The position numbers and the translations under genes were made by a program. A stretch of 64,000 nt of DNA from Prochlorococcus sp. MIT 0603 (GTDB taxonomy: Bacteria; Cyanobacteriota; Cyanobacteriia; PCC-6307; Cyanobiaceae). This document shows positions 24,233 to 29,615 of this stretch, one piece after another. The stretch covers positions 342,300-406,299 of the forward strand of contig NZ_JNAW01000002.1 of assembly GCF_000760215.1 (NCBI RefSeq). Direction: 5' to 3'. The notes below the pieces were generated by a model that was not told the DNA's origin, made no database searches, and saw nothing but the letters and a program-made list of their open reading frames with translations. Numbering within the stretch: position 1 is the first letter of the stretch; every line of letters starts with the position of its first letter.

Positions 24233-25483
24233 TTAGAAGTCCTTAGTCCAGTAATCAGAAAGTTTATTAATAACTTCAATTGGACCACATAAGCTAAGAA
24301 TGGGATCCTTTAAATATAATTGTGCAACCCGAAGAATCTCTAAGTTGTCGATATGTTCGATCCTTTTTAGATTCTGTAAATCATAATCCTCATTAATTTG
24401 CAAGCCAATTAGATGAGCTTTCCTTTCAGCTCTTTGAGAAATTGTTTGTGAATTATGAGCAATATTCCCTTTAAATTTTGCTTTTGCTAACTCCAGTTCG
24501 GATTCTGATATTAATTTCGTTTGTGAATTCATCCAACATTCTTTAATGTTGATTAGTGTTTCCATTGCCTTCTCTTTCGTTGAAGATGCATGAATTAAAA
24601 AAGGTGCATCAAACTCTCTTACTGGTTGATAAATACCTACATCATAAGCTAAACCCTTCTCCTCTCTTAGCCTTTGAAATAGGACACTTGACATGCCACA
24701 TCCCAAATGACAATTAAGTATTCTTAATGCTAAGTCGTCGGGATTGGAATGTGATGTTGTAACTTTCCCTAGAAGTAATACAACTTGATTCGTAGTTTGA
24801 TTAGTTAAAGAGATTAAATTCGATTTATTTCTTGTATTAATACTGCCTTTATAAATAGGATCTTCCTGATTTCTTTTCGAATTTGAGCAAGTTTTCTTAA
24901 GATCTTTGAAGTAATCATTAATATTAGCAGGTAATGAGCCTGAAATGATTAATGCTTTTTGCCTATAGAGAATCTTTTTCGATAGATTGAAAACATCATT
25001 TGTTGATATATTTTCAAGATCTTCTTTTATACCAAGAGTTTCTTTACTATATGGATGGTTATGATAGGCAAGTCTTTTCCAGCCTTTTAAAGCTATTTGA
25101 AAAGGATTCTCGCGCTGTCTTTTAATTGCTTTAATTGATAAACTTCTCTCCAGTTTTACTTGATCATCATTTATAAGAGGTTGCGTAATCATTAAAGATA
25201 AAAGAGGTAGTAAATCACTACTTCTTTGCTTTGTGCACTTTAGTGAAAGCATTAGACCATCCTCATATGTCTCACATACCAGGGAAGCACCACTCCTTTC
25301 TACTAGATCTGCCATTTCGAGATTATTATATGGACCACAACCTCTAATTAATAATGAACCTAAAAGATTATGAAGGCCCTGCTTTTTATCCGGGTCTGCT
25401 CTACTACCTTCTCTAATCCAAAGTTTGGCAGATAATATTCCTGGAGATAAACATGGGCTTAATATAATTTTTAATGATTGCAT
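24233..25483 (-). CDS. M16-family protease-like subunit, probably inactive
   Basis: 416 residues with the M16 (pitrilysin/processing peptidase) fold: AKLWIREGSRADPD, then HNLLGSLLIRG where active members have HxxEH, so the zinc ligands are missing. LRILNCHLGCGMSSVLFQRLREEKGLAYDVG in the second domain is the conserved R/Y-containing region that closes over the substrate. Bacterial M16 proteins often work as an active plus inactive pair, and the gene upstream (three bases away) has HFLEH. Proteolysis of peptides or cleaved signal peptides is the family role. Confidence 0.85.
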   Translation of the reverse strand: MQSLKIILSPCLSPGILSAKLWIREGSRADPDKKQGLHNLLGSLLIRGCGPYNNLEMADLVERSGASLVCETYEDGLMLSLKCTKQRSSDLLPLLSLMITQPLINDDQVKLERSLSIKAIKRQRENPFQIALKGWKRLAYHNHPYSKETLGIKEDLENISTNDVFNLSKKILYRQKALIISGSLPANINDYFKDLKKTCSNSKRNQEDPIYKGSINTRNKSNLISLTNQTTNQVVLLLGKVTTSHSNPDDLALRILNCHLGCGMSSVLFQRLREEKGLAYDVGIYQPVREFDAPFLIHASSTKEKAMETLINIKECWMNSQTKLISESELELAKAKFKGNIAHNSQTISQRAERKAHLIGLQINEDYDLQNLKRIEHIDNLEILRVAQLYLKDPILSLCGPIEVINKLSDYWTKDF

Positions 25484-25486
25484 CGT

Positions 25487-26761
25487 TTAATTAATACTCC
25501 TTGAAGGCTTTGCAATTAATGTGAAACTATTCTCTGGTTGGATATGAGCAAATATTTCTTTTTTGATATTAACTTCTTTCCAGGTATCTAAATATTTTAA
25601 AGGTTGTAATAGAGGTTGCTGACGTTCCCAAAGGGCTTGTGAAGCAGAAATTGAAGCGATATTTGAAGGCAACTCTAAACCAAAACAAAAACTGCTTCTA
25701 ACTAATTCTTTGGCACGTTCCATTTCTTTCTTTGTTGGGGGAACTGTGAGGCAACTTTTTAATACTTGTCTGATTTCTATTTCTACTCTTTCCAAATCTT
25801 TCTCCAAGCAATATGCCTCTAAAATCAATATTCCACTTAATTCCAAGGATGTTATATCTATATCTATTGACTCGACAATTCGTAAGTCTTCTTTTAAATG
25901 CTTTACTAGACGACTATTTCGACCTTCAGACAGTAATGATGCGGCTATATCAGCCCCGATAAGAGATGACTGGTCTTTAGCAGGAGGTAGACTCCATGCC
26001 ATCATTATTCGAGCAGATTCTAGTCTTGGAAACTCTATTTCTTTTCTTCCTGAAGAAAAAGTAAGTTGGCTTGATTGTTCTTTAATAGATTTGTTATTAC
26101 AAAAATTAGAAGTTCTTTTTGCTAAAAGATTTTCATTTAGGTACTCTTGAATATTTTTTGGAATATAGCCAGCTATCCCTATCGACATATTTTCTGGTTG
26201 ATATTGTCTGGAATGAAATAACCTCATATCCTCAGGTGTTCTGGAAAGTAGTGATTCTTCAAACCCTAAAATAGATCTTCCATAAGGATGATTGAGGAAG
26301 CAATTTTCAAGAAGGGCTTGAAAGACCTGTTCCTCAGGTTGGTCTTTATATTGTGCAATTTCTTCTAAGACAACATTTCTTTCTAAAGAATATGACTTCT
26401 CATTTAATAAAGGTGTTAATACAAGGTTCGATAAAAGGTCGATTGCAGTAAATAAATGCTTTGGAGGAATTAGGGCATAGTAATGAACGTCATCTAGCCC
26501 TGTGGCAGCATTGCTACTACCGCCTAAGGACTCTATCTTCTTGTCAAATTCTCCCTCTTTTAACTTACTGCTTCCTTTAAAGATCATATGTTCTAGGAAA
26601 TGAGCTAGGCCTTCTTCGCCTTCTTTCTCAAAAGCACTTCCTCCTTTGCACCAGATATCTAGACATGTCAGTGGTGCATTGGGAACATTGGCAACTACAC
26701 AGTTGGTTTTGTTTGGGAGCTGAAAATGGAGAGATTTTGGAGCTTGGATGGATTTTTCCAG
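25487..26761 (-). CDS. M16-family zinc metalloprotease, start uncertain
   Basis: 424 residues if a CTG at 26761 is the start. The zinc motif HFLEH (positions about 26594-26608) lies upstream of the first in-frame ATG (26587), so that ATG cannot be the true start. In-frame sequence upstream gives SLHFQLPNKTNCVVANVP and LDIWCKGGSAFEKEGEEG, the normal N-terminal domain, back to a TGA at 26771-26773, with no ATG, GTG or TTG. Either CTG starts translation, or the ATG frame at 26822 joins it by a shift at the A5 run (26753-26757). The downstream gene is the inactive partner. Confidence 0.8.
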   Translation of the reverse strand: MEKSIQAPKSLHFQLPNKTNCVVANVPNAPLTCLDIWCKGGSAFEKEGEEGLAHFLEHMIFKGSSKLKEGEFDKKIESLGGSSNAATGLDDVHYYALIPPKHLFTAIDLLSNLVLTPLLNEKSYSLERNVVLEEIAQYKDQPEEQVFQALLENCFLNHPYGRSILGFEESLLSRTPEDMRLFHSRQYQPENMSIGIAGYIPKNIQEYLNENLLAKRTSNFCNNKSIKEQSSQLTFSSGRKEIEFPRLESARIMMAWSLPPAKDQSSLIGADIAASLLSEGRNSRLVKHLKEDLRIVESIDIDITSLELSGILILEAYCLEKDLERVEIEIRQVLKSCLTVPPTKKEMERAKELVRSSFCFGLELPSNIASISASQALWERQQPLLQPLKYLDTWKEVNIKKEIFAHIQPENSFTLIAKPSRSIN

Positions 26762-26833
26762 GGTTGAATATCAAAGTTCCATTGTGATCCTTTTTCGCAT
26801 AGTGTTGGGTAAATGTTTTCATAATCTTTTCCT

Positions 26834-27547
26834 CTGAATCTCCTTTTAGAGTTAGTTGCAGATCGGATTAGGGATCGAGCTAAAGGCCTGACAAATGTTG
26901 CGCCATTAGAGCTTGAGCCTGATTTGAAAAATATTTATGGAAAATCAGAAGGGGATGATTTATTCATTGTCAATGAACTTAATCAAGCAAGAGGGTTTAG
27001 AAAGCTTCATTTGGAAACAGCTAAGCTTGGTTCATCTTTAGAAGTCTTGCATGCAGTGTTTTTCCCAGACCCGCTTTTTGATTTGCCAATATTTGGAGTA
27101 GATCTTGTTGCTGTCCCAGGCATAATCTCTGCTGCAATAGTTGACTTATCACCTGTTAGCAAATCACTCCCTAGTGCTATTGATTATGACTTGTCAAAAT
27201 TAAAATTCCCTTCTTTTAAGATAGTTAGAGAATTACCGGAATGGGGAGATATCTTTTCCCCATATGTTCAATTTGTTAGCCCAATGAATTCAAACGAAAA
27301 TAAGTCTTTTTTGAATTTGGTAGATTCTTATTTAAATATTCTTATTTGTTATTCTGCTTCGATTGATCCTCAGCTCCATGATGATCCACGAGTTAGTGAT
27401 AGATATAATAGACAAAAATATTATTGCCTTCAGCAAAAACGTAATGACAAGACACGTAACGTCTTGGCTAAAACTTTCGGAATGCCCTGGGCTAATCAAT
27501 ATATTGATAAGGTCCTTTTTGATTTACCAAGTAAATCGGAATTATAA
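26834..27547 (+). CDS. pcyA: phycocyanobilin:ferredoxin oxidoreductase, start uncertain
   Basis: 237 residues if a CTG at 26834 is the start; a TTG at 26924 would remove about 30 conserved residues. GFRKLHLETAKLG, then the catalytic histidine in VLHAVFFPDP and the aspartate in PIFGVDLVAVPG correspond to His88 and Asp105 of the Synechocystis enzyme. It reduces biliverdin IXalpha to phycocyanobilin in two steps with ferredoxin. Prochlorococcus keeps it although its phycobilisome is reduced. An ATG at 26813 in the same frame is followed after two codons by TAA (26822-26824). The following export genes start six bases after its stop. Confidence 0.93.
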   Translation: MNLLLELVADRIRDRAKGLTNVAPLELEPDLKNIYGKSEGDDLFIVNELNQARGFRKLHLETAKLGSSLEVLHAVFFPDPLFDLPIFGVDLVAVPGIISAAIVDLSPVSKSLPSAIDYDLSKLKFPSFKIVRELPEWGDIFSPYVQFVSPMNSNENKSFLNLVDSYLNILICYSASIDPQLHDDPRVSDRYNRQKYYCLQQKRNDKTRNVLAKTFGMPWANQYIDKVLFDLPSKSEL

Positions 27548-27552
27548 GTAAA

Positions 27553-28446
27553 TTGAAACGTTTTTTATACCCTGCCTTTATTTGTCTTTCGACTATATCT
27601 TGGCTTATTTTTGCAAGAATATCACCAATAGAACAAGAGAAGGATTCTTCACCTCTTGTTGTTAGACCCATTGAAGCTGTTGCAGCTTTAGGGCAATTAT
27701 CTCCTTCAGGAGAAGTTAGATTATTAGCAGCACCAATAACAGGCTTTGGTGGCACCCCTAGGATTTCTAAATTATTTATAACTGAAGGTGATTCCGTTAA
27801 GAAGGGTGATGTTCTTGCAATATTTGATAATAAACCTAAAATCCTTGCTGACTTAGATATTAGTAATGCACGTTTAAATATTATTAATAATAAGATAATA
27901 TCTCAAAAAAGAGAGATTAGTAGATATAAAGAATCGGTTCTTCAAGGTGGATCTCCAAAAGTTATTTTGGATGAGAGAAATGATGATTTATTGGAGTTAA
28001 TTGGAAACAAAAAAGAGGTGCTGGCCGAAATCAAAGCTCTTGAAATTGATCTTTATGATAGTGAGCTGAAAAGTCCAATTGACGGGATGATCTTAAAAGT
28101 TAATTCCCGAGAAGGAGAAAGACCTGATTCAGATGGTGTACTTGAAGTTGGATCCAGCCAATTAATGGAAGCACTTATAGAAGTTTATGAATCAGATATA
28201 AACAGAGTAACCATTGGTCAGGCTGTAACTTTGACCAGTGAAAATGGGGGTTTTAATGGAACTCTTAGAGGTCAGGTTAGAGAAATAAGTCCTCAAGTCA
28301 GACAGAGAAGAGTATTGGCAACTGACCCTACGGGAGATGCTGACGCAAGAATAGTTGAGGTTCGTGTGTCACTTGAACCCTCTTCAGCATTAAGAGTAGA
28401 ACGCTTTTCAGGAATGAAAGTAATAGCTCGATTTGTACCATTATGA
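27553..28446 (+). CDS. devB: HlyD/DevB-type membrane-fusion protein
   Basis: 297 residues, TTG start five bases after pcyA. It has an N-terminal membrane anchor (FLYPAFICLSTISWLIFA), a biotinyl-lipoyl half-motif (ISKLFITEGDSVKKGDVLA), a coiled-coil hairpin with many charged residues around 95-150, and a second lipoyl half (SPIDGMILKVNSREGE). It acts as the periplasmic adaptor of a DevBCA exporter. The overlap ATGA with devC indicates translational coupling. In heterocyst formers DevBCA exports glycolipid; the cargo in a unicellular Prochlorococcus is unknown. Confidence 0.87.
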   Translation: MKRFLYPAFICLSTISWLIFARISPIEQEKDSSPLVVRPIEAVAALGQLSPSGEVRLLAAPITGFGGTPRISKLFITEGDSVKKGDVLAIFDNKPKILADLDISNARLNIINNKIISQKREISRYKESVLQGGSPKVILDERNDDLLELIGNKKEVLAEIKALEIDLYDSELKSPIDGMILKVNSREGERPDSDGVLEVGSSQLMEALIEVYESDINRVTIGQAVTLTSENGGFNGTLRGQVREISPQVRQRRVLATDPTGDADARIVEVRVSLEPSSALRVERFSGMKVIARFVPL

Positions 28447-29615
28447 AACTTGATTTTTGGAAACGTAGAGGGATTCCTTTGGCTTGGCTTTTGCTAACAA
28501 GGCAACCTCTTCGTTTACTGGTTGCAATAGCGGGGATCTGTTTTGCTGGGATACTTATGTTTATGCAATTAGGTTTTCGGGATGGCTTGTTTGATGCAAG
28601 TGTCACTGTTCACAAATTATTTGATGCCGATTTGGTTTTAATCAGTCCTCGTTCCATGAGTTCAATCAGCATGAGTGGTTTCCCTCGAAGAAGACTTGTT
28701 CAGACAATGGCTCATAAAGATGTTGTAGGTACAACCCCTGTGAATTGGAATTTCTTGCTTTGGCGTAATCCAAAAACTCTTTCAACAAGAGCAATTCTTG
28801 CTTTGGGATTTGAACCAGGAAATGCTCTTTTGGTTGATAATGACTTTCCTCGCAAAGCGCAAAAATTAAAAAATTCTGGCCGTGTTTTATTTGATGAGCT
28901 TTCCAGAGAAGAATTTGGACCTATATCTCAATGGCTTTCTGAAGGTAAAATTGTAGAAACTGAAGTGGCTGGGAAAAGAGTTCGAGTTGCAGACTTGGTA
29001 AGCCTTGGGCCTTCTTTCGGAGCAGATGGGAATTTAATTACTAGTCGAGAAACTTTTCTTAAATTAATGCCGAGTACGCCTCCTGGGAGTATTGAAATAG
29101 GTTTGGTTCGCTTGAGAAAAGATGCAGATCACCAAAGGGTTCTTCGCTCATTGAATTCAAGCTTGCCAAACGATGTCAAAGTCCTCACCAGGAAAGATTT
29201 CATTGATTTTGAGAAGAATTATTGGAGAAACAGCACTTCTATAGGTTTTATATTTACTTTAGGTGCTGGAATGGGGTTCGTTGTGGGCTGTGTAATTGTT
29301 TATCAGATTCTCTATAGCGATGTAAGTGACCATTTGGCTGAATATGCAACATTAATGGCAATGGGATATCGGTTGAAAACCTTGTTAGGAGTAGTTGCGA
29401 GAGAAGGGTTGTTTTTAGCAGTTATGGGTTATCTGCCTGCATATATTTCAGGGGAGGCTTTATATGCGCTTGTCAGAACATCTACAAAACTTCCAGTAGC
29501 TATGGATCCTTATAGAGCTTTACTTGTATTCTTTTTGATCCTTTTTATGTGTATGGTGTCAGCTTCTGCTGCAATGCGAAGGTTGGTGGATGCAGATCCT
29601 GCTGATATTTTTTAG
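28443..29615 (+). CDS. devC: DevC-type ABC transporter permease
   Basis: 390 residues. The N-terminal helix LLVAIAGICFAGILMFMQLGFRDGLF is followed by a large extracytoplasmic domain of about 200 residues, then three C-terminal membrane helices (starting GFIFTLGAGMGFVVGCVIV). This is the FtsX/MacB permease plan. Its start overlaps the devB stop by four bases and devA follows after 30 bases. Confidence 0.87.
   Translation: MKLDFWKRRGIPLAWLLLTRQPLRLLVAIAGICFAGILMFMQLGFRDGLFDASVTVHKLFDADLVLISPRSMSSISMSGFPRRRLVQTMAHKDVVGTTPVNWNFLLWRNPKTLSTRAILALGFEPGNALLVDNDFPRKAQKLKNSGRVLFDELSREEFGPISQWLSEGKIVETEVAGKRVRVADLVSLGPSFGADGNLITSRETFLKLMPSTPPGSIEIGLVRLRKDADHQRVLRSLNSSLPNDVKVLTRKDFIDFEKNYWRNSTSIGFIFTLGAGMGFVVGCVIVYQILYSDVSDHLAEYATLMAMGYRLKTLLGVVAREGLFLAVMGYLPAYISGEALYALVRTSTKLPVAMDPYRALLVFFLILFMCMVSASAAMRRLVDADPADIF

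Follow-up and report, generated by a model that had tools for sequence, protein, structure and literature searches.

CTG codons as probable starts of the divergent pcyA and M16 peptidase genes of Prochlorococcus

Introduction

In E. coli the start strength of CUG is 0.86% of that of AUG, and CUG makes up 0.024% of bacterial starts (PMC11497404). Other non-canonical starts have been described for infC (ATT in E. coli, ATC in Streptomyces) and for Streptomyces sigR (GTC). These starts are repressed by IF3, and under this factor they hold expression low; annotation regularly misplaces them (PMC5472188). Termination-reinitiation coupling uses ATGA or TGATG overlaps (PMC6728339; PMC10666635). Restarting requires such an overlap or a very short gap; in E. 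coli a small class lies near +10 nt (PMC10666635).

The pcyA gene, encoding phycocyanobilin:ferredoxin oxidoreductase, and a gene encoding an M16 peptidase adjoin each other and are divergent in low-light Prochlorococcus. This locus was analyzed in a stretch of 64,000 nucleotides of Prochlorococcus sp. MIT 0603, referred to here as the window. Comparison of related genomes suggests that neither gene is defective and that each is expressed from a CUG start (CTG 26834, plus strand; CTG 26761, minus strand), a reading to which we give a probability of roughly 0.83. As in infC and sigR, a conserved in-frame near-cognate codon is the only plausible start and is missed by annotation based on ATG, GTG and TTG. 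Unlike in these systems, the codon is CTG and two divergent genes share a spacer of 72 nt. Moreover, pcyA and the M16 gene encode neither translation nor sigma factors, and IF3 dependence is a feature of infC and sigR. The rare annotated bacterial CUG starts (PMC11497404) involve the same codon, which is here backed by conservation in many genomes and found twice at one locus. There is also some likeness to termination-reinitiation: a CTGA at pcyA resembles a -4 nt overlap, and the M16 CTG lies 9 nt past the stop of a mini-ORF, near the +10 nt class. However, the upstream ORFs are leaders of 3-11 codons instead of genes, the restart codon would be CUG and the coupling is putative. Finally, prfB (RF2) uses a +1 frameshift at CUU-UGA. 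A CTT-TGA is likewise present early in the M16 leader, but its +1 frame, unlike that of prfB, is not the frame of the gene.

The two genes and their reading frames

Read from CTG 26834-26836, pcyA spans 26834-27547 on the plus strand and has 237 codons. Its product belongs to the PcyA family: it matches the NCBIfam equivalog NF002760 over the length of the model with 314 bits against a cut-off of 206, residues 3-232 of the CTG-started protein aligning with model positions 14-242 of 243. It also matches Pfam PF05996 and the solved PcyA 2d1e (E 6.7e-54). Read from CTG 26759-26761 on the minus strand, the peptidase gene spans 25487-26761 and has 424 codons. Membership of peptidase family M16 follows from an N-domain with HxxEH and an M16_C domain: PF00675 and PF05193 both exceed their cut-offs and the zinc motif HFLEH is present in the translation. 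The spacer between the two CTGs occupies 26762-26833.

The sequence-only reading had held that both genes lack a normal start at their conserved N-termini. This is true and is not due to sequence error, and the positions it gave for starts, stops and CTGs were all verified on the sequence. The pcyA frame is shut by a TAA at 26822-26824, four codons 5' of the CTG; an in-frame ATG at 26813 lies 5' of this TAA, and the first canonical start past it is TTG 26924. The M16 frame is shut by a TGA at 26771-26773 (minus), with three codons between TGA and CTG; a stop recurs at this position in the genus and in other genera, where some relatives have TGC or TGT instead. Between this TGA and the first in-frame ATG, at 26587 and inside the zinc motif HFLEHM, no ATG, GTG or TTG is found. 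An ATG at 26822 (minus), in another frame, and a T5/A5 run at 26753-26757 are both present. Such long start-free leads are exceptional in the window and exceed chance. Among its 44 stop-to-stop frames of 200 codons or more, scored by the number of codons before the first canonical start, M16 (61 codons) and pcyA (33 codons) rank first and second, and the third has 27. The next three frames appear ordinary (geranylgeranyl reductase, glpX-type fructose-bisphosphatase and tsf), with family homology from or just past an ATG or GTG.

The stretches 5' of the first canonical starts are under protein-level selection in both genes. Within the genus, pN/pS is 0.38 from CTG 26834 to TTG 26924 compared to 0.26 in the next stretch of pcyA, and 0.28 from CTG 26761 to ATG 26587 compared to 0.26 in the next stretch of the M16 gene.

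Several features of the surroundings were recorded as well. Region 24233-26761 (minus) harbours two consecutive M16-family genes, a YfmH-like one with HFLEH and a YfmF-like one, both scoring below NCBIfam cut-offs. The second gene (24233-25483, minus) lies next downstream of the first, starts with ATG, carries PF05193 and PF00675, and has its below-cut-off match with NF047422. The two are probably a catalytic/non-catalytic pair, with the YfmF-like protein as the non-catalytic partner. Just downstream of pcyA, region 27553-29615 (plus) was noted for a gene encoding a membrane-fusion protein of the DevB family (TIGR02971), apparently with a TTG start. It is followed by an apparent membrane component, which would place an exporter operon beside the bilin reductase.

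Conservation of the CTG codons

The locus was recovered in eight genomes of the same genus, two of which are single contigs at 99% completeness. The M16 frame is shut in all eight, by TGA in seven and by TAA in L005, and the distance from this stop to HxxEH is invariably 56 codons, with CTG at codon -53 relative to the motif. The pcyA frame is shut by TAA four codons before the CTG in 7/8; in the exception, L006, the TAA is AAA and an in-frame ATG lies three codons further upstream. Both CTGs are fixed at one codon, at the edge of the conserved N-terminus, in all eight genomes.

For pcyA, 133 genomes of the family have a readable N-terminus; being related, the genomes counted here and below are not independent observations. 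In 122 of these, the frame from the first upstream stop to the aligned codon contains an ATG, GTG or TTG, mostly GTG or TTG 9-14 codons upstream. Orthologues do not begin at the equivalent of TTG 26924: conservation extends upstream of it, and the majority of orthologues have a canonical start further upstream still. The remaining 11 genomes show no upstream canonical start, and in every one of them the aligned codon is CTG. These belong to four related genera (seven genomes of g1, G104 of g16, G045 of g33, and G051 and G114 of g39). Within g1, g16, g33 and g39 the codon is CTG in 15/15 genomes, including four with an open upstream start; the closest genera outside these four mostly have CTT, TTT or CTC there. 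In the window, 4.2% of leucine codons are CTG. The 13 other conserved leucine columns of pcyA use 2-6 codons each and none is fixed, CTG reaching at most 3/15.

The M16 gene could be aligned in 56 genomes, which were called closed when no ATG, GTG or TTG occurs upstream of codon -45. The closed arrangement extends beyond the genus to many other genera. It was found in 22 of the 56, all 22 of which have CTG at codon -53, while other leucine columns are mixed. Of the 34 open genomes, 21 carry the same CTG, and its conservation may partly be older than, or independent of, its use as a start. Genomes of g16 and g39 without CTG at -53 (L034-L037, L040 and L041) have TTG at -49/-50. ATT, ATC or ATA was rejected as M16 start, the ATC at -49 not being conserved (CTC in L005, AGC in L009), unlike the CTG. 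In many genera the M16 gene can begin at ATG-(GAA/GGN)-CTT-TGC/TGT. Elsewhere codon four reads TGA, ATA replaces the ATG, or the ATG has been shifted out of frame by an indel. The open/closed state changed at least 11 times on an M16 tree that was built without the start region and has strong support on few branches.

At codon 4 of this upstream region (26771-26782, minus) TGA alternates with TGC or TGT (L043, L048, L058, L072 and L094), a pattern that looks like selenocysteine/cysteine, yet occurs in genomes without SelB. Independent indels in L034, L035, L036, L087 and L136 shift the conserved ATG motif out of the M16 frame. In L036 and L087 the TGA of the shifted ORF overlaps a TTG of the M16 frame (TTGA).

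For both genes, then, no in-frame ATG, GTG or TTG separates the upstream stop from the conserved N-terminus, and one near-cognate codon is kept at a fixed place beyond synonymous drift (15/15 genomes in the pcyA clade; 22/22 closed M16 genomes). The sequence-only reading had named two facing CTG starts as one of three options. This option is well supported, the CTGs being fixed in all genomes of the genus and in each further lineage that has no canonical start; the other two found no support. The locus fits best among conserved non-canonical starts, of which it adds a new pair. What counts against CUG initiation is the weakness of this codon in E. coli, and that no Shine-Dalgarno sequence is found beside either CTG. 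A literature search found no work on CTG starts in Prochlorococcus or on transcription start sites of pcyA, and no Prochlorococcus proteomic or ribosome-profiling papers bearing on these starts.

On this reading fMet would be the first residue at both CUG starts. In other genera each gene would start further upstream, the M16 gene at ATG-GRN-CTT-TGY and pcyA at a GTG or TTG about 11 codons upstream. Time and again these upstream starts may have been cut off by stops or indels, after which the downstream CTG would have taken over. If CTG is the start, its never having changed to ATG, GTG or TTG in 15 genomes would require selection for weak initiation.

Alternative explanations

The transcripts could be leaderless, with 5' ends at the CTGs; the pcyA TAA would then belong to a -10 box (CATAAT, 26820-26825), and the stop would be mere promoter DNA. 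In the genus, an A/T-rich -10-like sequence does lie 8 nt 5' of the pcyA CTG, and the highly conserved spacer and the missing Shine-Dalgarno sequence would fit as well. However, a search for a consensus promoter was negative, and in GC-richer genera the M16 side lacks a -10-like sequence at this place. Leaderless initiation is generally AUG-dependent. We consider this explanation unlikely; it would allow for CUG starts and competes only with the leader ORFs discussed below.

Less likely still is initiation upstream combined with recoding, by readthrough of the M16 TGA (as Cys, Trp or selenocysteine), by a prfB-like +1 shift at CTT-TGA, or by a -1 shift into pcyA from GTG 26802. The TGA/TGY alternation, the conserved ATG with AAGGA upstream, the likeness of CTT-TGA to the RF2 frameshift site, and the fact that the pcyA GTG frame ends exactly where the pcyA frame takes over are all in line with it. 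However, each variant meets with contrary evidence. SelB scores above the TIGR00475 cut-off in 0/61 family genomes and the alternation is therefore not selenocysteine; the selenoprotein reading of the M16 TGA was rejected. Readthrough is contradicted by a tandem TGA-TAG in L043 and a TAA in L005, and upstream initiation by the ATA that replaces the ATG in L043, L050, L055 and L140. The +1 shift was rejected on account of the frame entered. A -1 shift into pcyA would fail in L004, where 1 nt is deleted, and an in-frame TAA occurs in L036, L037 and L047. Recoding also leaves the fixation of the CTGs unexplained.

It is very improbable that the genes start at their first canonical codons (TTG 26924; ATG 26587), with the upstream conservation reflecting regulatory DNA, or that they are decaying. 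Standard ORF calling does yield these two codons, and the first 30 codons of pcyA show slightly less synonymous divergence (pS 0.44 compared to 0.65). However, ATG 26587 sits within HFLEHM, the upstream pN/pS values of 0.28-0.38 speak for coding sequence, and there is no common downstream start, the canonical codons being absent or differing in place among the same-genus genomes.

A sequencing or assembly error, or a recent strain-specific nonsense change plus frameshift (A4 at 26753-26757 and a sense codon at 26822), can practically be dismissed: a single base change would join the ATG 26822 frame to M16, but identical stops and the 56-codon spacing recur in all eight same-genus genomes, including the two single contigs. 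As this spacing is constant, the A5 run has not lost an A, and with two single-contig genomes at 99% completeness one assembly artefact cannot account for the architecture. A local sequence error, as considered in the sequence-only reading, is ruled out by these independent genomes, and its nonsense change plus frameshift is unsupported. The ATG 26822 frame is itself disrupted in L004, by the 1-nt deletion, and its ATG is absent from L005. For the same reasons a small protein in this frame (MKTFTQHYAKKDHNGTLIFN) was rejected, although its DNA is conserved. Overall, the evidence excludes or disfavours selenocysteine, RF2-type frameshifting, a pseudogene and sequencing error.

The spacer and possible leader ORFs

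Within the genus (L004 left out) the mean pairwise identity of the spacer is 0.89, compared to 0.66-0.76 in the adjoining coding DNA. A motif CA(G/C)AATGG(G/A)ACTTTG, often with AAGG 5' of it, is conserved in nucleotides across genera regardless of the M16 frame; it is kept with its ATG in frame, followed by TGA, mutated to ATA, or frameshifted. A regulon motif was rejected: exact matches of CANAATGGNACTTTG occur only at the pcyA/M16 locus of the same-genus genomes listed, and with at most one mismatch allowed, each genome has no more CANAATGGNACTTTG sites than the few expected by chance. Rfam offered nothing credible for a structured RNA in the spacer region, RNA folding on either strand did not surpass that of shuffles (z -0.39 and -0.64), and no sigma-70 promoter or terminator was found at the locus.

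On the M16 side the spacer holds the mini-ORF ATG GAA CTT TGA (M-E-L-stop; 26771-26782, minus) with AAGGA 5' of it. The mini-ORF, M-E/G-L-stop in its general form, belongs to the conserved motif, and the distance from its stop to the CTG is 9 nt in nearly all closed genomes. On the pcyA side a short out-of-frame ORF (26802-26837, plus) runs from GTG(-TTG) to a TGA that overlaps the CTG as CTGA. The GTG at -32 (ATG in L008) and the end at +3 relative to the CTG are found in 7/8 same-genus genomes; L004 has no such overlap because of its 1-nt deletion. The CTGA overlap is common to the genus, and variable or not shown in L036, L037, L040 and L047. The GTG-TTG pair of other genera survives in this genus, but out of the pcyA frame.

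Both ORFs have a putative role only in the most tentative part of the proposal, in which reinitiation after a leader ORF possibly feeds the CUG. The old start regions might still load ribosomes, which would translate the short leader (M-E-L-stop for M16; the ORF ending in CTGA for pcyA) and then reinitiate at the CUG, 9 nt past the stop of the M16 mini-ORF, holding expression low. Against a strict need for leader ORFs count the ATA for the motif ATG in L043, L050, L055 and L140, and the lack of the overlap in L004, L037, L040 and L047. It is a speculation, and one that we regard as rather doubtful, that in marine picocyanobacteria the pcyA/M16 spacer acts as a conserved element of translational control, with weak CUGs fed from leader ORFs (AUG-GRN-CUU-UGA; GUG-UUG...CUGA).

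Implications

CUG starts are considered nearly absent from bacteria, while here two appear to be conserved at a single locus. If this is true, automatic annotation truncates real genes, as programs do not normally consider CTG; at this locus annotation would cut the peptidase inside its zinc motif and take about 30 N-terminal residues from PcyA. The repeated change between open and closed states would also provide a phylogenetically replicated case for studying why a weak start is retained when ATG is one base change away. If the spacer is indeed a control element, it would have persisted through many losses of in-frame upstream starts, and it would keep the output of the bilin reductase and the peptidase low, or responsive to the levels of initiation or release factors.
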